Source: Methylicorpusculum oleiharenae
GTDB lineage: Bacteria > Pseudomonadota > Gammaproteobacteria > Methylococcales > Methylomonadaceae
Direction of reading: 5' to 3'
DNA: 64,000 nt
NCBI RefSeq assembly: GCF_009828925.2
Contig: NZ_WUTY02000001.1
Span: forward strand, 1,766,492-1,830,491
This document shows, piece by piece, positions 46,861 to 64,000 of this stretch. The notes beneath the pieces are model-generated. The model was not told the origin of the DNA, did not search any database, and was given only the letters and a program-made list of their open reading frames with translations. Each line of letters starts with the position of its first letter. Within the stretch, counting starts at the first letter, position 1. Position numbers and translations under genes: made by a program.

Positions 46861-47021
46861 TATACCTTTCGTACTTCAAATTTCGGCAGTGCCTAAGGAG
46901 GCAACGGGTTGTTCGGCAAAGGCTTTGCCAGCATGGATGCTGGCATAGAGCCTACATGGATGTATTTACGGCGTCCTTTGACGGGCACCCCGGTGCTGAA
47001 TTTCGATCTACGCTGGGTATA
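46861..47021 (+). repeat. Dispersed repeat family A, copy 3
   Basis: Differs from copy 1 at only about five positions over the 142-base core. Ends TATACCTTTCGTAC and CTACGCTGGGTATA are inverted at TATACC/GGGTATA. Confidence 0.8.
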
Positions 47022-47048
47022 AGTTTCAACGTTGCTCAAAAAAGTATT

Positions 47049-52300: not shown

Positions 52301-52449
52301 AATAAAATCGAACGATTTTTCAGTATAAAAGGAGTAGTTCAAAGTAACCCGGCTCGATCGTGTCGATTCGCAAAAGTCAGTCTATATTTGTGGGGTAAGG
52401 ATTGACCAATTTGGGAAAGGATTGAAGTGGATTGTTGATTGGCGTTTTA

Positions 52450-53658
52450 ATGAATAGAGAAAAGCACTTACTGAAAATTCATGTATACGAACTGAAAATA
52501 GGCATGTTCGTTGCCCAGCTTGATATACCCTGGGAAAAGTCTCCCTTTCTTCTTCAAGGTTTTGATATCAAATCGCCTGCCGACATCAGTGCGGTTCAGC
52601 AGGTATGCGATTACGTGTACATCGATACATCAAGACAGAAAGATACCCATGGGGCTGTTTCAGATGAATTGAGTGTCAAGTTCAGCCTGTCTTTTGAAGG
52701 TGCTTTCGGCGCGGCAAAAAACACCTATCAAAGCACCAGTAATCTGGTCAAATCAGTAATGGATGATATTCGTTTTGGTAATCAGCTTAATGTCAATGCC
52801 GTCAAGTCACTGGTGAGTGATTGTGTCGATCGTGTATTGGAAAATCCCGATGCCATGATGTTATTGACACAACTGAAAAATAAAGACGAATACACATCGC
52901 AGCACAGTCTTAATGTCAGCATCATGTCCATTCTGCTGGGTCGGCATTTAAACTATTCGGTTGAAGACCTTAACAAGCTGGGCTTAAGCGGGTTGCTTCA
53001 CGACATGGGTAAAATGAAAATTCCGCTGGAGATTCTTAATAAAGAGGGCAATTTAACCCCCGATGAATTTAAAGTGATGAGAACCCACGCCACGCATGGC
53101 CGGGATATTTTGATGTCGGCCAGAGAAATTTATCCGGGTGCAATTGATGTTGCGTATATGCATCATGAAAAGCTCGATGGCACTGGATATCCCATAGGGA
53201 TTATGGATACGGGGATCTCGCAATTTGTCCGGATTGTGGCGATAGCGGATGTTTATGATGCCATCACCAGCGACAGAGTTTACCAAAAAGGACGCCTGCA
53301 TCTTGAAGCGATCAACACGTTGACGCATAACAGAAAGACGCATTTTGACGCGGATCTGGTCATCAAGTTTATCGACTGTATCGGTATTTATCCTGTGGGT
53401 AATCCGGTAGAGATGACTAATGGGGAAGTGGGTGTTGTGATTGCCGGTAATAGCAAGCAAAAAACCAAGCCGAAAGTAATGATGTTGCTGAATGCTGAAA
53501 AAACAGAACGCGAAGCGCTGATCATTGATCTTGCTGACCCTGCTTGTGTTGATTCAAAGGGCGAAGCCTACCGTATCTACAAAGTGCTGCACCAAAACCA
53601 ATACGGCTTGAATCTTAGAGACTATTTTAACGATGGAAAATTTCTTCCAGCGAATTAA
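52450..53658 (+). CDS. HD-GYP domain c-di-GMP phosphodiesterase
   Basis: About 402 residues from ATG 52450. N-terminal DUF3391 (about 5-130; IHVYELKIGMFVAQLDIPWE) and a C-terminal HD-GYP domain (about 135-330) with LLHDMGKMKIP and HHEKLDGTGYP, the metal-binding and GYP motifs of active c-di-GMP phosphodiesterases. Monocistronic. Confidence 0.94.
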   Translation: MNREKHLLKIHVYELKIGMFVAQLDIPWEKSPFLLQGFDIKSPADISAVQQVCDYVYIDTSRQKDTHGAVSDELSVKFSLSFEGAFGAAKNTYQSTSNLVKSVMDDIRFGNQLNVNAVKSLVSDCVDRVLENPDAMMLLTQLKNKDEYTSQHSLNVSIMSILLGRHLNYSVEDLNKLGLSGLLHDMGKMKIPLEILNKEGNLTPDEFKVMRTHATHGRDILMSAREIYPGAIDVAYMHHEKLDGTGYPIGIMDTGISQFVRIVAIADVYDAITSDRVYQKGRLHLEAINTLTHNRKTHFDADLVIKFIDCIGIYPVGNPVEMTNGEVGVVIAGNSKQKTKPKVMMLLNAEKTEREALIIDLADPACVDSKGEAYRIYKVLHQNQYGLNLRDYFNDGKFLPAN

Positions 53659-53717
53659 CCCGACCCAAAAAAGAGATTATTGAATTTCAAACGTAAAGTA
53701 TTAACGCCAGCAATGGT

Positions 53718-53777: not shown

Positions 53778-54992
53778 TTACAAACCCTTGGCGACCTTGG
53801 CTAATGCTGTTTGAAACCAGTTGAATCCAATCATTTCTTGCTCGAGACGCAAGTTCTTGCGAATTCGATTATCCCGAAGAGCATCAAACAAGGATTGCTC
53901 ATCTGTCGTTAATAACGGCAAGTCCTGAAGAGCCTGGCTTTCTTCATTACCCCACAAAGACTCATGAGTGAACAGAGTTTCACGGTCCATCATGAATGAT
54001 TCAACGTGGCTAAAACGGCTGCGTAGCTGATTCAATATGGCAAAGCCATGAGTATCGATATCTCCCCAGTAATAGATGAGGCAATCGGAAAGCCAGTGAA
54101 TATTCGACAAGTTATCCCAACCGTAACCCGCACCAAAAATAATCAGGCTGTCCGCTATCGGAGGAAAAGCCAAAAAATTCGTTTCGTTCTCGGTGATGAA
54201 AACTCGGCTGGCAATCGCAGGAAGTCTGGCAAAACTGGCGCTATCTAATGTGATGTCCGGTGTCCCGCCGCCCGGTAATGGCGATTTAGACGGGTCCAGC
54301 ACTCGAAACCGTATACGGGCCGGTTTGTTTCGAAAACCATAGCGTACCGAAAATTGTCCCACACCGGTTGCTTCCAAAGCGATAGCGTCTTCAGGTAAGC
54401 TTATATCAAAGAGTTCTGTCAAAACCCCACGATGAGCCTCGATAAATTTGCTGTTTACCCCGGGAATGTCCACTTGACGTAAGTAAATACCCGGCCGGGG
54501 ATGAGTTTGCATCCAATCCACTGTGTCAAGCAGTAAAGACCAACGATCGGCCAGTTCCAGTGCTTTCAACGGTCGTTTGGCTAGCCAGCGCAATAACAAG
54601 GGTTGGCGTTGCCGGGTTTCGTCCAGCAAAACAGAAAACCGATTAGCCTCGATGCGTTTGCCCAACATTGCCAACGCAGCATCCAGACTGTCGATCCAGG
54701 CTTCGCCGGGTATCGAATTGATGCCGAAAAGCTGATGAATGAAGGTCTTTATTTCAATTCTAAAATGCGAAACATTCGTCAGCGCTTTTACCCATAACCG
54801 CACCTCTTCGAAGTTTTCGGAAATTTCCTTTGACGTCGGGCCTTTCAAGTTCAGCCGTTTGGGAAAACAATTTTCACTTTCGATCAACGGTGTTAACAGT
54901 TCACCTTTGTCCCATAGCTTTTGCACTTGAGCGCGCAAATCGGAGGGGCTGGTCCAATTGTTTTTTTTACGGGGTGAGTTATTGCGACTCAT
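53778..54992 (-). CDS. jetD: Wadjet system nuclease subunit JetD
   Basis: 404-residue subunit that cuts plasmid DNA in Wadjet defence. N-terminal DUF3322 (about 10-195; [31 protein letters not shown]) and C-terminal DUF2220 TOPRIM-like nuclease (about 225-404). Its acidic residues are intact: E268/E270 in FITENETNF and D311/D313 in WGDIDTHG, with E384/E386 in the final helix. Known JetD acts on circular DNA held by the JetABC loop extruder. Start overlaps the jetC stop by ATGA; last gene of the operon. Confidence 0.93.
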
Positions 54993-57900
54993 GCATTCTC
55001 ACTGACCTGCTGTCTGCGAGCGGTTTCCTTACGATATTCTTCGATTGAAAGATTGCGTAATTGGGAGGCACGGCCTTGTTCGTTGTATACAAAGCCTACA
55101 TGGGCAACATAGGGCTCGATAATATGAATTTTTTGCAACGGCGTAACAATCAGCAGTTGCAAATTAAGCTTCTCGAACAAGCGTAAACCGTATTGGGCCG
55201 ATTCGTCAGAGCCTCGACCAAAGGCTTCGTCGATGACGACGAAACGGAACGAACGCGAGCGCAGTGCACCCCATTCCAAACCGAATTGATAGGCCAAACT
55301 GGCCGCCAAGATGGTGTAGGCGAGTTTTTCTTTTTGCCCGCCGGATTTGCCACCGGAATCCGAATAATGCTCGTGCTCGCTGTCGTCGGCGCGCCAACGT
55401 TCACTGGCTGCAAAAGTGAACCAGTTGCGCACGTCGGTGACTTTGGATGTCCAGCGTTTGTCTTGGTCCGAAAGCCCTTCACGTCCACGGAAACGGTCGA
55501 TAATGGTTTTGACTTGCAAAAATTTGGCTTCGGAATACTGCGCATCATCTGAGCCCGTCAATGAACCTTCGGTACACGCCCGAAGGTCGCTTTGGAAATC
55601 GCGAATATCGGCATCCGGGCTGGGTTGAGAGACCAGTACGATGTAGCGCCCCTGGTTGTAGTCGATTTGAGTCAGAGAGTCGTTGATGCGGTCGATGCGT
55701 TCTCGAATGGTTTCGCGCTCGCGGGATAACTGGGCGTTGAAGTTTGCGATTTCGTTAATGGTATTGACGTTCAACAGTTCTTTGAAGCGGGCCTCGAAAC
55801 GCGGCAGGTCGTCGCGGCCCAATTTGTCGAGCAGGTTTTGATATTCGAATGCGGCCTCGATGCTGGCATCAAATTCGGCTGTTTCCAGTTTGAATTCGTC
55901 CTTGAAGATCATCATTGTCTGGATGATTTTGTCGCGTAAAGATTTAAGTTTGCGATCTTCGTTATCGATAAACTTTTGCAGCCAAGCACGCGTATCCTGT
56001 TCGCGATTGTCGCACGATTCGACGCTGAGCTGATGTTCGCCCAACGCCTCATGGCGTATTGTCTCCAACTTCTCAATTAAATGCGAAATATCGGCGGTCA
56101 TTTGCGACAGGGTTTGCTCACGCAGGCTCTCTGCATCTTGCTTTCTTTGTTCGGTCTTCGAGCGTTTGTCCCTGGCTTGTTTCAAGTCCTCTTCAATGAT
56201 TTTTAATGTTGCTTCGATCTGTTTCAACTGATCGGTAAGTTCCCGCAATAAATCCGATGCCGATTCCAGGCTGCGTAGCTCCGCTTCTAATTTGGCAATC
56301 TCTCCGGCAACCGAAGGCCAATCCAAGTCCTCGAAATTGCTGAACTCTTCCAGTCGGGCTAAAGTTCCCAATCGCATTTGCAGTGATGTTCGCTCGGTTT
56401 TCAGTTTGTCGACATGGCCCTTGATTTCAGCCGCCTTAAGTTGCACGTTGCGGGCTTGTCCTTCCAGCGCGGAAATCTTGGCCGTATTGCTCCAGCCCAG
56501 TACATAGCGGCTCCGATCGTCGATTCGGTGTCTATCATCCTTTTCATGTCGCCCTGTTGGATCTTTTATTTGGCCGGCCATGGTGATCGCACGGGTTTCC
56601 CGGCGGAATTGCTCTTGCGTCATACAACAAGCTACATCGAAGCGATGAGCCACTTCCCGCTCAAGCCAGTCATAAAACGCTGAATCGGGTTTGATTGTCA
56701 GTTTTCGTGCTAGTGAATCGCGATGCAGATCAGGAAGATCAATGCGTCTGAGCGGGCGAACATGAAAATATACCAGACGGCCCTTAAGTTGATTGCGATC
56801 GATCCAATCAGACACAGCCGCATAGTGGCTGTCCGGCACCAACAACGACAAGCCAAAACCGCGCATCAGTCGTTCCGCAGCACCTTCCCAATTGCGCTCG
56901 TCTTCGCGGACCTGCAACAATTCGCCAGCAAACGGCATATCCTCTTCGGACAAATTCAATGCCTGGCATAGGGCCGTGCGTATCCTGATTTGCGGTTCAT
57001 CAATATTGCTTCTGCGTATTTTTAAACTGGCAATTTCATCGAGGAGTGCCTTATGTTTTTCCAGGCAGTTTCGTAAGTCGAAATCATGGTCGCGTTCCCG
57101 ATTTTCCAGATCAATAGTGTTTTCTTGCAGTGTGATCGCCCGTTCAGCCCATTGCTTGCTTTGGTTCACAAATTCGGATTCATGAGTCGCTGGCTGCTCA
57201 CCCAGTTGCTTGACCAATTCGGCGTAACGATCCGCCTTTAATTGACGTGAGTGGCGAATTTTTTCGTTTTTCTTGATGTCGTTTTTTAAGCGTTCCAACT
57301 GGTCACCACCATTTTGGGCCATTGCGGTTTTTAGTTCGCCCACTCGACCGCTTTGTTCCTCGTGCTGATGCTCAAGACGTTTAACCTGGGCATCTTGTTT
57401 GCCCCAATCTTCCTTCAGCAAATTAAGTCGTTTATCCAGCAAGGCCAACTTCAAGCCGGAAAAATAAGTCCGCAAGGCATCGCGGGCCTGTCGCGACTGT
57501 TCGATTTCTCCGACCAACTCGCTGTGATGTCGGCAATTGGCAGTTAGCGGCGTTAATAATTCGACCTGGCGTTTAGCCCTCAGGACAGCTTCATGGGCGC
57601 GATTCAGATCGTCGAAATGGGCTATCAACGCGCTGATGCGGGATGTTGTATCGGAAGGTTCCAACATGTGGCTGCGTACAAAATCAGTCAGGTTGCCTAC
57701 CGATTTCATCGACACGGTTTGGTGGAATAATTCCAACGCCTGTTCGTTGTCGATGCCGAAACGGCGCCTGAACCACGCACCATATTTCGGAAAACTGTCT
57801 TCAATTTCCGCGCCCAATCCGCGCAACTTTTTGCGCAATTGCGAAATGTCGGTGCCAAAGCGGGAAAAGTCGTTGGCAATCGACAATTCACGTTCGGCGC

Positions 57901-58366
57901 CGACAAAAAAGCGTGCGGGCTGGCCTTGTGCGTCCTTCAGCCAGAACACTTGAGCCAAGGTGACGGTTTGATCGTAACCGGCATTGTGAAATACCCCCAA
58001 GATTACGGAATAGGTGTTGGCGTCTCGCAATGGCACCGGCTTAGCCGTGCCGGTGACCTCATTGCGTTCCGATTTGTAATGCCCCAGCACATAAGAACGC
58101 AAGCTACGTTCCTTGCTGTCGGCGCCGGCCGCTTTGTTATAAGCGACACGATTGGCCGGCACCAGTAAAGTCGTTACGGCATCGACCAAGGTCGATTTGC
58201 CTGAGCCGATGTCGCCGGTCAGCAGACCATTTTTGCCATCCAGCTGTAATGTCCAGACGCGCCCGTCAAAGGTGCCCCAGTTAAACACTTCCAAACGCTT
58301 TAAGCGAAAACCCGATAGCGCATCGTCTGCTACAAAGTCCAAGTCGAGGGTATAGGGCTGAGTCAT
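54989..58366 (-). CDS. jetC: Wadjet system SMC-like ATPase JetC
   Basis: 1125-residue SMC/MukB-like motor. Walker [10 protein letters not shown] (51-59), long coiled-coil arms (about 230-480 and 620-900) around a hinge region, and at the C-terminus signature SGGQKEK (1008-1014) and Walker [10 protein letters not shown] (D/E at 1046-1047). The [19 protein letters not shown] stretch is characteristic of JetC. In characterised systems it forms, with JetA and JetB, a loop-extruding complex that recognises small circular DNA. ATGA overlaps on both sides. Confidence 0.95.
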
Positions 58367-59043
58367 GTTGTCTGTCCAAGGGTAGAATCATCATTATTTC
58401 TATCAAGTGTCCGATTTCTCGCCTCTCGCGGAGCGTCTGCGCCCAATTGAGCTTGGTAAGCTGCCAATCGAGCATCGAAATCAGTCAGCCATTGCGCATC
58501 GACAAATGCTTTCAGAATTCGCTTCACTTCAAAACCAACAGGTCCCGCCGTTGTTTTTAGTCGGCGCAAAAAACCAAGTTCGATGATTTTGTTGATGTGC
58601 GTTTCGATTTGATCGATCAGTCTGGCTTCATTGCTGCTATCCGGTAAAAACACCCTGATCAGATCGACGATTTCGTCACGCGACAAGATTAATCGCGTAT
58701 CACCTCCACTGGCATCAAATTCAGCCAGTTTCTTGCGAAGCAGAACGAGTAATAAGCTAACCGGGAAAGACAAGGGTCGCCGTGCGATCAAGCGAGGGAT
58801 TTTATCCGCTTCGATTTCATCGTCGTCCGATTTGGAGCGCATAAATGCGTAGCCTTCGGCCTCATCCAATACCAGATCCAATCCGATGACCGCCGTATAG
58901 TCGCGTACGCGGGCCTGCAGATTGAGCAGGGTTGACCACAATTGTTCATCGCCCTCGCGGTAGATAACACCCTTGAGCAAAGTAATAACCAGTGTGGAAA
59001 GATCGATGCTTTTATCGACCGGGATTTCGTGATCCATCATCAC
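58363..59043 (-). CDS. jetB: Wadjet system subunit JetB (DUF4194)
   Basis: 226 residues, DUF4194, the MukE-like winged-helix partner in the JetABC complex. Typical stretches: [44 protein letters not shown], and [21 protein letters not shown]. The C-terminal tail is charged and may be disordered. Its ATG overlaps the jetA stop. Confidence 0.93.
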
Positions 59044-60494
59044 CTCACAAAAATGAAACGGGGCAAATGCGCTCGTTTATGGGATAAAACGCCATCAACA
59101 CCCGGGCTACGCCAAACGATCAGGTCAAGGGTATCCTCGTCAACGACCGTCTTGAACAGTTCGCTACCCAATTGCAGATAGGCCACCAATTCAGCCAGGC
59201 CTTGTCGTAAAGGGTGTTTTTCAATCAAATCGCGCAGGGTGATTTGGGAGCGTTGCTGCAAGGCTTGGCGAATATGGTGGGCCAGTTCTGACTTATCGAT
59301 AATCACTTGCGAATAAAGCACGTCGACATCTACTTTGGCATCGCCTGTTTCCAAATCGATATTGGCGATCACAGGCTTCACAGCCGGTTTGTAAAGCGGG
59401 CGCTCTAAAGGTAATTCCGCTTCGGCAGCGGTGTCGGCAATACGGGTGATTTGACCGACAGGCGGGTTATCGCGTAAGGCCAGTGCCTTGGTTTCGATGC
59501 CATGCAAAATATCCATGATACGCCGGTTTTCCAACCACGCTTTATCATCGAGAAAGCGTCTTAGCTGTTGGGAAAGTTGAGCTACCGTGCGTTGAGTGTG
59601 CTCGCCGGCCTCCAGCCAGTCATAATGGACACGTCGAGTACGCGCATCGGGCTTGAGTTCCTCAATGGGTGATAGCGAGAGGACTCGCGCGAGTAACTCG
59701 GACAGTTCTTCTTGGCGCCGACTGGACATCAAGAAATCCCAGAAAGCACGAAAGCTTCTACCTTGATCAGAGTCGGCAATCGCATCACGCTCACCCATGA
59801 TCTGTTCCAGCAATTCACCTTTGGCGCCATCCCACAAGGCAATACGCTCCCGTACCCGCTGGTCCAGAAGCCGAAAATTATGTTCCACCTCGCGAAAATC
59901 CGTAAGTAGTTCACGCGCCAGTTGCATAAATTGCTGGAATCGATCTTTCAAAGCGGTATCGTCTAACAGGGGTACATCACCCGCTAATACTCTGGCTATC
60001 TCTGCATCAATTTCGTCGCGCCGCTTGTGTAACTCGGCAATGCGTTTGATTGAATCGGTTTCACTGCCCTCGCTCATCTGCTTGAGTAACTCAAACAAAG
60101 TCAGTAAACGCGATTCTGTTCCGACAAAACTACGTTCGGATAATGTTCCAAGCCAGGCGATTGCCTTTTCAGTTGAGGGCATTAAATCAAACTGAGGCTC
60201 ATCCGAACCTTGTCGATAGAATTTGCGCAACCAGCCTTTTTCAGGACTGGCCCAGTCATTGAGGTAATCCAATGCTGCTTTTGGAAATACCTCGGCACCT
60301 AATCTGTCCCGCAAGGCGTAAAGTTCGTCCTCCAGCGCCTCAGCCAGATCAGCTGCAGCCATCACGCGAACATTAGGTACAATAAATACCCGATGAAGAA
60401 AGCTGGCTATGAGAGGCGCATGGTCCGAACGTAAAAGGCGCCAAGCGGGGTGGTGAGTCCGCAATGCCTCAAGTGATATGAAGTCAATGGTCAT
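59040..60494 (-). CDS. jetA: Wadjet system subunit JetA (DUF3375)
   Basis: 484 residues, DUF3375, the kleisin (MukF-like) subunit. N-terminal helical domain (ISLEALRTHHPAWRLLRSDHAPLIASF), central coiled coil (about 150-260; LHKRRDEIDAEIARVLAG) and C-terminal winged helix. First gene of jetABCD, with ribosome site CGGAGC upstream. Together the four genes define a complete Wadjet type I system. Confidence 0.94.
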   Translation of the reverse strand: MTIDFISLEALRTHHPAWRLLRSDHAPLIASFLHRVFIVPNVRVMAAADLAEALEDELYALRDRLGAEVFPKAALDYLNDWASPEKGWLRKFYRQGSDEPQFDLMPSTEKAIAWLGTLSERSFVGTESRLLTLFELLKQMSEGSETDSIKRIAELHKRRDEIDAEIARVLAGDVPLLDDTALKDRFQQFMQLARELLTDFREVEHNFRLLDQRVRERIALWDGAKGELLEQIMGERDAIADSDQGRSFRAFWDFLMSSRRQEELSELLARVLSLSPIEELKPDARTRRVHYDWLEAGEHTQRTVAQLSQQLRRFLDDKAWLENRRIMDILHGIETKALALRDNPPVGQITRIADTAAEAELPLERPLYKPAVKPVIANIDLETGDAKVDVDVLYSQVIIDKSELAHHIRQALQQRSQITLRDLIEKHPLRQGLAELVAYLQLGSELFKTVVDEDTLDLIVWRSPGVDGVLSHKRAHLPRFIFVR

Positions 60495-60604
60495 TTAACT
60501 TGCTCCGACATAGAACAAAGTGAATTGACGCATCTCGTTAGTCTTCAACCGATTTAATAAAGTTCTGGATGCATCTACCTTCACTGTGACCATTCCTGAT
60601 GGGT

Positions 60605-60703: not shown

Positions 60704-61651
60704 ATGAATCATCAAAATAATCGATTGTTTCAGATGTCTAACGAAAAACTTTCAGCATTGACCCAGCCGCAGCGAGATAGGCTTGCATTTGTGGAATTGC
60801 GTGTACGCTTTATCGGAGAAATTCGTCGTCAAGATTTAGTGTCACGGTTTGGCATTCAATCTGCCGCTGCTACTCGTGACCTGGCGCTTTATAAAGACAT
60901 TGGACCAAACAACATAGACTATGACGCCAAAGGCAAGTCTTACGTCATCGGGACTGATTTTTCTCCGCTATTCGATTTTCCGCCGGAACGGGTTTTGACC
61001 TGGTTGTCACAGGGGTTCGGTGACGGTGAGCCACTGTTGTTAAAGCCCTGGGTTTCCTGTGAAATTCCTACCAGGCTCACGGAACCTTATCTTGCGATTC
61101 TGGCAGCTGTAACCCGCGCCATTCATCTGCAGTGCCCATTAAAAATAGAGTATTTCTCCATTACCAGCGGCAAAAGCGTTCGTGAAATCGTTCCATTTGC
61201 CTTAACCGACAATGGCTTGCGCTGGCATCTAAGAGCGTTTGATCGGAAAAGTCAGGAGTTTAGGGATTTTGTCATCACTCGCATCAAGCAACCCGTTGTG
61301 ATGAAAGGGGCTGAAGTGCTAACACACGAACGAAGCGACCAGGATATACAGTGGACCCGTATAGTAGAACTTGATTTGGTTCCCCATCCCGACCAGCCAT
61401 ACCCTGAAATTACCGAAATGGATTACGCCATGAGGAATGGCATTCTGCACGTCAAACTTCGGGCGGCCACCGCCGGCTACACACTGCGCAAATGGAACGT
61501 GGATTGTTCGCCGGACCACAGCTTGCATAGTCATGAGTACCGGCTTTGGCTTAGTGATTCTTTGGCTTTGTACGGGGTCGGAAACGCAAAGCTTGCCCCT
61601 GGTTACCGTGCTCCAATGACCGGCAACTCAACATCTTTGGATCGTAAATGA
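60704..61651 (+). CDS. WYL-domain regulator of BrxR/CapW type
   Basis: 315 residues (304 if the ATG at 60737 is used). N-terminal winged helix (about 20-95; RLAFVELRVRFIGEIRRQDL, SAAATRDLALYKD), central WYL domain (about 130-205; LKIEYFSITSGKSVREIVPF, LRWHLRAFDRKSQEFRDFV) and C-terminal WCX extension (about 210-300). This is the layout of BrxR and CapW, dimeric repressors that control BREX, CBASS and other phage-defence operons and are thought to sense a nucleic-acid or nucleotide ligand through WYL. It is divergent from jetABCD, so it probably regulates the Wadjet operon. That pairing is inference from position. Confidence 0.85.
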   Translation: MNHQNNRLFQMSNEKLSALTQPQRDRLAFVELRVRFIGEIRRQDLVSRFGIQSAAATRDLALYKDIGPNNIDYDAKGKSYVIGTDFSPLFDFPPERVLTWLSQGFGDGEPLLLKPWVSCEIPTRLTEPYLAILAAVTRAIHLQCPLKIEYFSITSGKSVREIVPFALTDNGLRWHLRAFDRKSQEFRDFVITRIKQPVVMKGAEVLTHERSDQDIQWTRIVELDLVPHPDQPYPEITEMDYAMRNGILHVKLRAATAGYTLRKWNVDCSPDHSLHSHEYRLWLSDSLALYGVGNAKLAPGYRAPMTGNSTSLDRK

Positions 61652-61668: not shown

Positions 61669-61831
61669 ATGAACTTGAATTCGCGAGATTTGCTCGCCCG
61701 AGCAACTGGAAAGCGGCTCAATGATTATGCCTTCGCCAACCGTTTGACCCGCGAGCAGGATACTGCAACTTAGGCCGGTTATTGAACGGGTTGCAGATAA
61801 GATTAAGGTGTTTATTGAGGGAAAGGGGTAG
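61669..61831 (+). pseudogene. Possible frameshifted gene remnant
   Basis: MNLNSRDLLARATGKRLNDY... runs to TREQ, and a one-base shift near 61761 continues as ILQLRPVIERVADKIKVFIE to a stop at 61829-61831. Both halves look protein-like, and the shift joins them. The family is not recognised. Confidence 0.3.
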
Positions 61832-62008
61832 TCATTAACGGATTGGGTTTAGGAGCGATTCAAAAGCCAATATGGAAAGGTCGGGGGGGAACTGGCTTAT
61901 TGATGCCTGTTTTTCGGCAATCGTTGCGGCTGATTTTTGGGAGTGTGCCAAAATTGCGCCATTTTTAAAAATACAATCTTTTAAAAATCACTAAGTGACT
62001 GATTTTAT

Positions 62009-62058
62009 TGGTGCCCCGAACACGATTCGAACGTGTGACCTTCCCCTTAGGAGCGGGA
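62009..62058 (-). other. 3' half of a tRNA gene (tRNA-Arg CCT-like), likely attachment-site scar
   Basis: On the minus strand: anticodon loop CTCCTAA (anticodon CCT) with stem TCCCG/GGGGA (one mismatch), variable AGGTC, T arm ACACG-TTCGAAT-CGTGT (perfect stem), acceptor strand TCGGGGC, discriminator A and CCA. The 5' half (acceptor strand GCCCCGA and D arm) is missing upstream, so it cannot make a tRNA. Fragments running from the anticodon loop to the 3' end are typical of integrase attachment sites. Confidence 0.65.
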
Positions 62059-62160
62059 GTAGCCATATAAAAAACCCTTATTTAACAGTTGGTTAGAGCA
62101 TGCCGCCTTGCGTGCTTATGACAGGAAACGACACTGGTACTTGCCGTCCGACAAGGGTTT

Positions 62161-62193
62161 GTCACGTTTTAGTCACGTTTTGGTCACGGTCAT
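62161..62193 (+). repeat. 11-bp tandem repeat, three units
   Basis: GTCACGTTTTA, GTCACGTTTTG, GTCACGGTCAT. It lies about 100 bases from the tRNA fragment. On the minus strand one frame reads NDRDQNVTKT to a stop, which could be the tail of a lost integrase, but this is weak. Confidence 0.55.
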
Positions 62194-62682
62194 TGTTAAA
62201 TGATTTTACGGATACGCTGACCATAAGCCACGATATTAAGATGACAGAGATAGAGCGCAGTCAGGTCCGAAAATGCCTAGTCGATGGGTATGGACTGGAT
62301 ATTCTTTTAGCAAAACAGTTATCCAGCCTGCCATAACCACAAACTCGGAAAGCTGGGACGCTATCTTTAGTTAACCACTACCGGGCACTATAGCCGATTC
62401 AGAAATAACCGCGCACCTCATCATGCAAAAACGTGGGGCCTTGAAAGCCACATACGCGCTTACCTCAGTGCATCTCGACCTGCGTGTTGGCTACAGAAAG
62501 CGGCAAAAACAAAAATTGACGATGCGATGCATAAAGCACGGATTAGCTTTGGTCTGTAAACTATCGTTTGACTGCCACTCCAATCAAATTTCGCAAAAAC
62601 TTACATTCTCATCTATTGCCTGACCTGATTACAATTACCCGGTAAAATGGCCTTATCATTATGAATAGTAAGCCGAATAACC

Positions 62683-63426
62683 ATGACATCTGCCCATTCC
62701 AGTCTTTCACTGCCTCTTTCCGATGAAGAGTTGGCAGAACTCGATCAATTTTTGATGTCGGATGCCACATCCGATGAAACGATGTGGATTGATGCTTTGG
62801 ATGGTTATTTGACAGCTATTGCCATCGGTCCGACGAATGTACCGATGAGCCGGTGGCTTCCAGAAGTATGGGGACCCGATGAAGAAGATGCCCCTCAATT
62901 CAAATCGCAGGCCGAAGCACAGCGCATCATGAATCTGGTTTTTAGACACTTCAACGGAATTATAGCTACGCTGGAACAGAATCCCGATGACATCAACCCG
63001 ATGTTTGAATTGATTGAAGATGAAGGTAACGAAAACGCGGAAACCTATATGAACGCAGAAATGTGGAGTCATGGCTTCTTAATGGGCGTGCAATTGAGTT
63101 GGGATGATTGGAAGCCGTTGCTGAACGACCAGGATGGTGCCACGGTGATTTATCCGATCTATCTTCTAGGTGATGATAGTCTTTCGCCGGAAGAAGTGGC
63201 GCTGATCGAAACGCCAGAACAACGTGAAGAATTCACTAATTGTATTCCAGATAACATTGCCTGGATGTATCGGTTTTGGCAACCCTATCGTACAGCGAAT
63301 GCAGAACTTGTTTTAGCCAGTTCCTCGCAAAGTAACCCAGATAAAGTCGGCCGCAATGATGATTGTCCCTGTGGTAGTGGTAAGAAGTTCACGAAGTGCT
63401 GCGGTTCGGCGACGGTGTTGCATTAA
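62683..63426 (+). CDS. UPF0149/YecA family protein with SEC-C zinc motif
   Basis: 247 residues. N-terminal UPF0149 domain (about 12-195; LSDEELAELDQFLMSD, IDALDGYLTAIAIGP, WSHGFLMGVQLSWDDW) and a C-terminal SEC-C metal-binding motif VGRNDDCPCGSGKKFTKCCG with the CxC...CC zinc ligands, as at the end of SecA. Related YecA proteins associate with ribosomes and the Sec pathway. Function here is inferred from family. Confidence 0.92.
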   Translation: MTSAHSSLSLPLSDEELAELDQFLMSDATSDETMWIDALDGYLTAIAIGPTNVPMSRWLPEVWGPDEEDAPQFKSQAEAQRIMNLVFRHFNGIIATLEQNPDDINPMFELIEDEGNENAETYMNAEMWSHGFLMGVQLSWDDWKPLLNDQDGATVIYPIYLLGDDSLSPEEVALIETPEQREEFTNCIPDNIAWMYRFWQPYRTANAELVLASSSQSNPDKVGRNDDCPCGSGKKFTKCCGSATVLH

Positions 63427-63505
63427 GATGAAACCATCACCCATTGGCTGTATGCTGCGGGCTATTTGAGTTTAAAAACCAAAGCTATTTAATCGGGGGA
63501 ATACA

Positions 63506-64000
63506 ATGGATTACACGGCCATACTGCAAGCACTTAATAAAGCCTCACTATTTGATTTACACCGTTTACAGTCGGCCATTTATCAAGAATTGATCAATCC
63601 GGACCGGGTCGAGCAGGTCAAGGCTCAGTTGAAAATCGGGCAAGCCATCAGCTATTTTGATCCGCAAGCCAATGGCTTGATCGATGCGGTGATTTTGAAA
63701 ATTCAAAAAACCCGCTGCCTGGTCAGAAATGTCAAAGACCAGAAAAACTGGAACATCCCGTTTTACTACATCAACCTGGATGATGTCGATACGGCGATCC
63801 AGCCGGCACCCAATGCCTGCGGTATTCCCAAAACTGCATTACACATCGGCGCCAAGGTCGGTTTCAAAGATCGCAACAACCAAGAACGGTTCGGAGAAGT
63901 CATTCGGCTCAATCCCAAAACAGCCACCTTAAGACTCAACGATCAGCAGACCTGGCTGGTGGGCTACAACTATTTGTTTTACGTCATCGATAGCGCCGCC
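63506..64000 (+). CDS. Hypothetical protein (3' end cut by window edge)
   Basis: 165 codons are visible from ATG 63506 (ribosome site GGGGGA, 63495-63500), open to the right edge. It begins MDYTAILQALNKASLFDLHR and has a beta-rich middle (GQAISYFDPQANGLIDAVIL, TRCLVRNVKDQKNWNIPFYY). Two passages look like KOW/SH3-type small barrels (KIGQAISYFD, GAKVGFKDRNNQ). Not recognised. It lies 80 bases after the SEC-C protein gene on the same strand. Confidence 0.75.
   Translation, partial: MDYTAILQALNKASLFDLHRLQSAIYQELINPDRVEQVKAQLKIGQAISYFDPQANGLIDAVILKIQKTRCLVRNVKDQKNWNIPFYYINLDDVDTAIQPAPNACGIPKTALHIGAKVGFKDRNNQERFGEVIRLNPKTATLRLNDQQTWLVGYNYLFYVIDSAA

Follow-up and report, generated by a model that had tools for sequence, protein, structure and literature searches.

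A displaced tRNA-Arg(CCT) 3' half marks the far end of a 168.6-kb conjugative element and leaves the Wadjet genes outside it

The window analysed here is a 64,000-nt stretch of DNA (G000:C1:1766492-1830491, forward strand) from a genome of 5.85 Mb in three contigs. Close to its right-hand end lies a 45-nt piece of a tRNA-Arg(CCT) gene. With high confidence we interpret this piece as the attR half-site of a 168.6-kb ICE, left by a tyrosine-integrase event at the anticodon loop, with the Wadjet genes beyond the scar, where they may occupy the stub of an older island. The original prediction had recognised a tyrosine-recombinase scar, and this much is borne out by an intact tRNA partner, an integrase, repeats at both ends and the pattern of tRNA alleles. 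It had also suggested that the scar bounds, or came with, the Wadjet block. This part is not supported: from 62054 the element extends 168.6 kb to the right, with Wadjet on the opposite side of the scar, and the putative arm-type repeats lie on the element's side. The scar itself is real, precisely explained and of a known kind; the value of the analysis is the correction of what it bounds.

The fragment and its intact partner

Positions are those of the window, and extended coordinates continue this numbering rightwards (genome position = extended + 1766491). The main features are:

52432..53658, plus strand: HD-domain (HD-GYP-like) gene, left edge of the variable region
53778..60494, minus strand: Wadjet jetD, jetC, jetB and jetA, outside the element (PADLOC JetA1, JetB1, JetC1, JetD1)
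60704..61651, plus strand: WYL-domain regulator, outside the element (domain search)
61696..61758, plus strand: remnant of an HsdR C-terminus (type I restriction), 87% to G002 C154:3190-3252
61897..62008, minus strand: end, on the tRNA side, of an integrative element that is older than the conjugative element, differs from it and lies outside it (resembles other element ends)
62009..62053, minus strand: attR, displaced 45-nt 3' half of tRNA-Arg(CCT), allele 1, position 32 to CCA
62037..62053: 17-bp block identical in the fragment and the intact tRNA; allele differences begin on the T-arm side of 62037
62054..64000: start of the 168.6-kb conjugative element (1.9 kb of it); the remainder extends along G000:C1 as far as the intact tRNA-Arg(CCT)
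62161..62188, plus strand: three direct GTCACG repeats with 11-bp spacing, putative integrase arm-type sites at the distal end
62683..63426, plus strand: UPF0149 + SEC-C protein, distal-end cargo (domain search)
63506..64000, plus strand: hypothetical protein, cargo, running past the window (no Pfam match)
G000:C1:1997129-1997205, minus strand: intact tRNA-Arg(CCT) (ARAGORN)

Read on the minus strand from 62053 down to 62009, the fragment comprises loop position 32, the CCT anticodon, the variable loop, the T-arm, the acceptor 3' strand and CCA. It had been described as a 50-base piece from the anticodon loop to CCA without its 5' half. The piece is real, judging by its sequence and by ARAGORN, which calls no complete tRNA in the 64,000-nt window, but only 45 nt of it are tRNA; the five further bases to 62058, four of which match the intact gene, are already part of the neighbouring element. 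No ORF of at least 80 aa overlaps 62009-62058, and the fragment is not inside a conserved protein-coding gene. Neither this region nor the window matches an Rfam family at gathering score, and a relaxed threshold adds only two chance-level matches. The predicted distance of about 350 bases to the WYL gene agrees with the 358 bases counted from its stop at 61651, and the adjoining DNA is indeed decayed, consisting of the HsdR remnant and the end of the older element.

The only other strong match to the tRNA part of the fragment in the genome (G000:C1:1997112-1997178, E 3.1e-13, 84% over 67 bp) leads to the intact tRNA-Arg(CCT) gene. Alignment of the two 3' halves, proposed earlier as a check, gave 40 identical positions out of 45. 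The two copies have the same orientation, with the fragment on the 3' side of the intact gene, whose CCA end faces it, and the CCA ends are 168,629 bp apart. Since the alleles differ only on the T-arm side of this 17-bp block (62037-62053), and the sequence past 62053 no longer follows the intact gene, the strand exchange must lie in the block or at its edge.

The integrase that had been expected beside the intact tRNA is also present. This 363-aa tyrosine integrase is encoded by an open frame on the plus strand, which is convergent with the tRNA gene and stops 23 bp from its CCA; the integrase domain covers positions 2-171 of the 172 of PF00589. The genome holds 65 matches to PF00589, and the 168.6-kb span this one only. 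A 126-residue HTH_17 frame, similar to phage excisionases, precedes and overlaps the integrase gene.

Both ends of the span carry the same repeat. GTCACG begins at 62161, 62172 and 62183 at the distal end, and at extended 230572 and 230583 at the proximal end. Within the 243.5 kb searched, these two clusters are the only places where copies of GTCACG stand within 25 bp of each other on either strand, always 11 bp apart. Measured inwards, one cluster is about 110 bp from the fragment end and the other about 50 bp from the tRNA end. Arm-type integrase sites are placed in this way, and we suggest that putative role for the repeats. The same repeat (read as CGTGAC, at 11 bp) is also found beside the tRNAs of two other loci, L071 and L072, with integrases 80% and 50% identical to this one. 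The integrase of L071, the closest found elsewhere, likewise converges on a tRNA-Arg(CCT), one that shares this T-arm, and the ends of the two elements can be aligned. The integrases most similar to this one mostly converge on tRNA genes (a convergent tRNA stands next to the integrase at 8 of 15 loci in one search and at seven of nine loci outside this genome in another), and most of their targets are tRNAs other than tRNA-Arg(CCT). The G+C content does not mark the span as foreign DNA (0.494 versus 0.484 to its left).

This arrangement is of the kind that Islander defines for tRNA-gene islands by a tDNA and a 3' fragment, with anticodon-loop crossover as class 'A' (PMC4383910). As far as the available part of that source describes them, class 'A' islands share with the present element an intact tDNA, a displaced 3' fragment in the same orientation, an internal tyrosine integrase, a length below 200 kb and the anticodon-loop crossover, and we see no essential difference; here the 3' halves differ at five of 45 positions, and therefore the host's T-arm has been exchanged. 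With respect to the island filters given there, the integrase is internal, the fragment is a terminal 3' piece rather than a full tRNA gene, it lies downstream in the same orientation and outside any conserved coding gene, and 168,629 bp falls within the range of 2-200 kb. Displaced tRNA fragments have been described as one source of false tRNA genes (PMC9897764, in the part available).

Comparison of the 3' halves across genomes distinguishes two alleles. When the 5' half of the intact gene is joined to the fragment, the product is identical to the intact gene of the congener G002 (77/77), and ARAGORN calls it as tRNA-Arg(CCT). The allele of the fragment (allele 1) is the intact 3' half of G002 and G046 (45/45), with 44/45 in G011 and G018. 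The allele of the intact gene (allele 2) occurs in the G002 fragment (45/45), in both copies of G001 (45/45) and, as a T-arm, at L071 beside the most similar integrase. Because of this pattern we regard the fragment as the former resident 3' half and the working gene as carrying the half of the element. Allele 2 is not private to this element, as its presence on both copies in G001 demonstrates, and since both alleles occur within the genus, the 3' half has been swapped more than once.

The proposed course of events is as follows. At the anticodon loop, a tyrosine integrase would have recombined the chromosomal gene with a tRNA-Arg(CCT) 3' half (allele 2) carried by the element. The half brought by the element would now complete the working tRNA at G000:C1:1997129-1997205, and the previous 3' half of the host (allele 1), together with the DNA that once followed the gene, would have been displaced by 168.6 kb to window position 62009. 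Wadjet would then stand in the former downstream neighbourhood of the gene, a stub of an older, unrelated island that has kept type I restriction genes in G002 and only the HsdR remnant in the present genome. The integrase now beside the tRNA is the probable agent of this event and may still be able to excise the element.

Content of the element

The domain search covered 65 proteins of the span, namely the HTH_17 frame and 64 of the 144 non-overlapping ORFs that reach 80 aa; at this coverage nested elements are likely. It identified the following groups:

extended 79-85 kb, minus strand: TraG_N, TraH and TraF
extended 87678: TraI_2, with TrfA and a TraD/TraG-type coupling protein
extended 185-198 kb: TraE, TraK, TrbI (TraB), DsbC-like, TraV, TraC, TrbC F-type, TraU and TraN
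L027:15917 to L028:7771 (extended ~199.4-211.3 kb): second defence block, internal to the element
L029:3740-5770: two FlhC-like and two FlhD-like frames, just upstream of the integrase

The span thus encodes a relaxase, a coupling protein and type IV secretion functions; it is a conjugative element of F type that resembles SXT/R391 and IncA/C and presumably transfers. The relaxase was matched in 11 of 61 genomes, this one included; among relatives its identity does not exceed 66%, and the matches of about 30% in G001 and G002 belong to other elements. Among the ten best plasmid matches the identity is 37-52%, and PLSDB assigns class MobH. Between the coupling-protein gene and the TraE group lies a long stretch of cargo that includes porin, RND efflux, molybdopterin and sulfatase genes. 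The defence block encodes a WYL protein, a BPTD_3080-family restriction enzyme, a type III methyltransferase, a TrlF/Ppl-like ATPase and a Schlafen AlbA_2 + HATPase protein; the last label replaced a weak assignment of one element protein as pAgo. Beyond this block, towards the integrase, follow NYN, RecT, YqaJ, CbbQ and DUF3150 genes. One of the two FlhD-like matches scores under the cut-off of Pfam, and one FlhD-like stretch shares its frame with a DUF4325 STAS-like domain.

SXT/R391 and IncA/C elements likewise combine a TraI_2-type relaxase, F-type mating-pair genes, a RecT/YqaJ pair, a CbbQ-like ATPase and FlhDC-type regulators. SetCD and the activators of IncA/C are FlhDC-like. Unlike SXT/R391, the present element sits at tRNA-Arg(CCT) instead of prfC and its regulators adjoin int, and its relaxase is at most 52% identical to any of the ten best plasmid matches. 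At 168.6 kb it is also larger than the 74-121 kb given for that family in the available part of PMC5217437. Of the 52 syntenic core genes of SXT/R391, the main transfer, recombination and regulator classes are represented here by domain only. The core functions of the family, its prfC criterion and ICEVchBan8 are described in PMC2791158; according to the available part of that source, ICEVchBan8 is an SXT-like ICE with a P4-like integrase and so resembles the present element in joining an SXT-like backbone to a different integration module. The core genes of ICEVchBan8 hardly differ from those of SXT, whereas the backbone found here is distant and resides in a host that, going by named relatives, probably belongs to the Methylococcales. 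It appears to be remotely related to SXT/IncA/C and combined with another integration module, in what is probably a methanotroph. An ICE has been reported in Methylococcus strain KN2 (PMC8527097, in the part available); in the literature as far as it was accessible, we found no prior description of an R391-type element at a tRNA gene in methanotrophs, or of an ICE or tRNA genomic island in Methylomonas.

One stretch inside the element (L021:4743-11545, extended 68252-75054) is IS/transposon-like and 100% identical to two parts of contig C4 of G002, which also carries a TraI-like gene. Such identity points to a very recent exchange between congeners.

Relatives and the DNA left of the scar

Among 61 genomes searched, 35 gave a match, and an intact gene together with a fragment occurs in at least five besides the present one. 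In these five (G001, G002, G057, G058 and G060, of 60 relatives searched) the 3' half lies 6-12 kb from the intact tRNA-Arg(CCT), and all of the halves break at CTCCTAAGG, as does the fragment in the window. Because five of 60 relatives have a 3' half that starts from the same anticodon-loop base, chance can be excluded. The integrases inside those five elements are only about 25-33% identical to the present one, and tRNA-Arg(CCT) is a hotspot for several integrase lineages. G057 and G060 each contain an additional integrase piece just outside the scar and convergent on it (67% over 98 residues and 40% over 148); these positions suggest that the scars of both genomes are also stacked on older elements.

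Every relative in which a fragment was found carries some insert. The most informative is G002, where the same left flank (72%) with its fragment and the same right-hand flagellar genes enclose a different element of 6 kb. G002 has no JetC, so the comparison of relatives with and without Wadjet that had been suggested speaks against a link between scar and Wadjet. The four flagellar genes nearest the tRNA are 91-95% identical in G002, and the genes on its 5' side (PilZ, FlgN, FlgM, FlgA, CheV-like, rod/hook genes) are kept in G001, G002 and, more distantly, G011. A conserved left neighbour of the tRNA was not found across the family; in G011 the 8.7 kb left of the tRNA contain no gene of the argH-HD block, and argH itself is at a distance of 382 kb.

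The decayed DNA between the WYL gene and the fragment has relatives of its own. With the tRNA part removed, the left flank resembles the tRNA-Arg element ends of G001 and G002, the flanks of their fragments and the flank of tRNA-Lys(CTT) in the present genome (scores 41-74, 0/500 shuffles each). Compared with the end of the conjugative element it scores 18, a value reached by 120 of 500 shuffles. From this resemblance to other element ends we conclude that the decayed DNA is the end of an older, different integrative element. The claim rests on that likeness and not on arm repeats, because a test for 11-bp repeats restricted to the left flank did not reach significance (p 0.21). Window 61696-62053 aligns with G002 C154:3190-4959, interrupted by an IS in G002; the G002 ORF that matches the HsdR remnant is EcoR124_C, and beyond the aligned flank G002 has HsdS and HsdR pieces where the present genome has the HsdR tail only. 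The tRNA-Lys(CTT) 3' flank (L030:10213-10418, G000:C1:4090213) resembles the end of the older tRNA-Arg element family and is possibly, on this likeness, another stranded island end.

All four type I Wadjet genes stand together (PADLOC type I models) with a WYL gene alongside, as in known JetABCD systems, but here outside the fragment-bounded element. WYL regulators have been described beside defence systems including Wadjet (PMC9122601, in the part available). The Wadjet block common to G024 and G029 spans 53810-60495 and excludes the WYL gene at the DNA level. JetC is encoded in 17 of 61 genomes, this one included, and is absent from G001 as well as G002. Of the 16 other JetC genomes, eight (G011, G012, G027, G041, G047, G054, G055 and G057) have a tRNA-Arg(CCT)-like match whose position could be compared; it is more than 600 kb from jetC in five of them and on a different contig in three. 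In six relatives, no tRNA gene was found within the 15-20 kb read around Wadjet.

On its left, Wadjet adjoins conserved sequence. Synteny with the congener G001 extends from argH to the HD gene, mostly at 91-97% at the protein level with one gene at 88%, and breaks at 53659, so Wadjet sits between this edge and the HsdR remnant of the older island. Past the HD gene, G001 has an IS-like repeat and, on its far side, 132 bp that duplicate the 3' end of the HD gene, next to a block located 1.6 Mb away in the present genome (L060:17863-17994 and L060:18727-19901, both on G001:C108). The breakpoint in G001 is the very base at which the Wadjet side begins in the present genome. We rejected G001 as a guide to the neighbour of the HD gene before Wadjet, since a rearrangement in one lineage blurs it. 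In G002 the contig with argH stops just past that gene, at a dispersed repeat of 160 bp. An intergenic repeat of about 160 bp (window 46861-47022) has dozens of copies, mostly at 86-97% identity, in the present genome, G001, G002 and G011; as RNA it folds at -70.6 versus -47.7 kcal/mol for shuffles (z -5.8), and it belongs to no Rfam family at gathering score.

Alternative explanations and meaning

That the fragment is a decayed duplicate of the tRNA gene, which lost its 5' half by drift and with no element involved, can be dismissed almost entirely. Remnants of tRNA genes do occur, and the fragment does differ from the intact gene at 5/45 positions; yet at these five positions the fragment has the bases of the intact G002 and G046 genes, which is not decay, the break falls at the same anticodon-loop base in six genomes, and end repeats and integrase mark the same boundaries. 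It is only slightly less improbable that the fragment bounds an element on the Wadjet side, and that Wadjet was delivered by the event that made the scar. In its favour, the flank to the left of the fragment is similar to an integrative element's tRNA-proximal end, and what is left of a restriction gene separates fragment and Wadjet. However, the proximal end of an element integrated into a tRNA 3' half borders the intact gene and not the fragment, and the missing 5' half with its intact partner, the integrase, the end repeats and the conjugation genes are all to the right. Moreover, there is no second tRNA-Arg scar to the left of Wadjet, where the best ungapped non-self match has 18 mismatches in 45 positions, and G002 shows the same left flank and fragment without JetC.

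The attR reading thus explains the scar, and an account of Wadjet as cargo of the older-island stub is compatible with it and part of the best explanation. In its detailed form, Wadjet would lie in a stub from the same tRNA-Arg hotspot that predates the ICE, its integrase and left scar would have been lost, and a type I restriction locus would have been replaced or displaced; we give this version somewhat less than an even chance. It draws on the flank matches to the element ends of G001 and G002 and to the tRNA-Lys flank, on the HsdR remnant in common with G002, where HsdS and HsdR pieces persist, and on the end of G001 synteny at 53659, just left of Wadjet. The integrase remnants just outside the scars of G057 and G060 indicate that stacked elements are usual at this gene. 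Against it, no left att scar was detected, the congener contigs end before the left side of the old island, and Wadjet may have entered by homologous or IS-mediated recombination instead. The predicted tie of Wadjet to a mobile element therefore survives in part: Wadjet is not on the element of the scar, but its flank is the end of an older element to whose stub it may belong, although no left-hand scar of that island was found. Replacement of the restriction locus by Wadjet in this old stub is conceivable on the same grounds.

These results fix the exact ends of a 168.6-kb conjugative element, the far one inside the window, and tell apart two sets of defence genes that could pass for a single island: Wadjet, which is outside the element, and the restriction/methyltransferase/TrlF block, which is inside. 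They also show how a 45-base scar can be read: the missing half of the fragment points to the element, and allele comparison reveals which 3' half was the host's. A broader proposal, which we consider unlikely, is that tRNA-Arg(CCT) is a layered hotspot in this genus, where integrases swap the 3' half and strand older islands, whose stubs would serve as docks for the exchange of defence cassettes (type I restriction to Wadjet). Wadjet acts on circular DNA. If the proposal is true, Wadjet adjoins the attachment site of a large element that must move by way of a circle, and it could police or tolerate the adjoining ICE.
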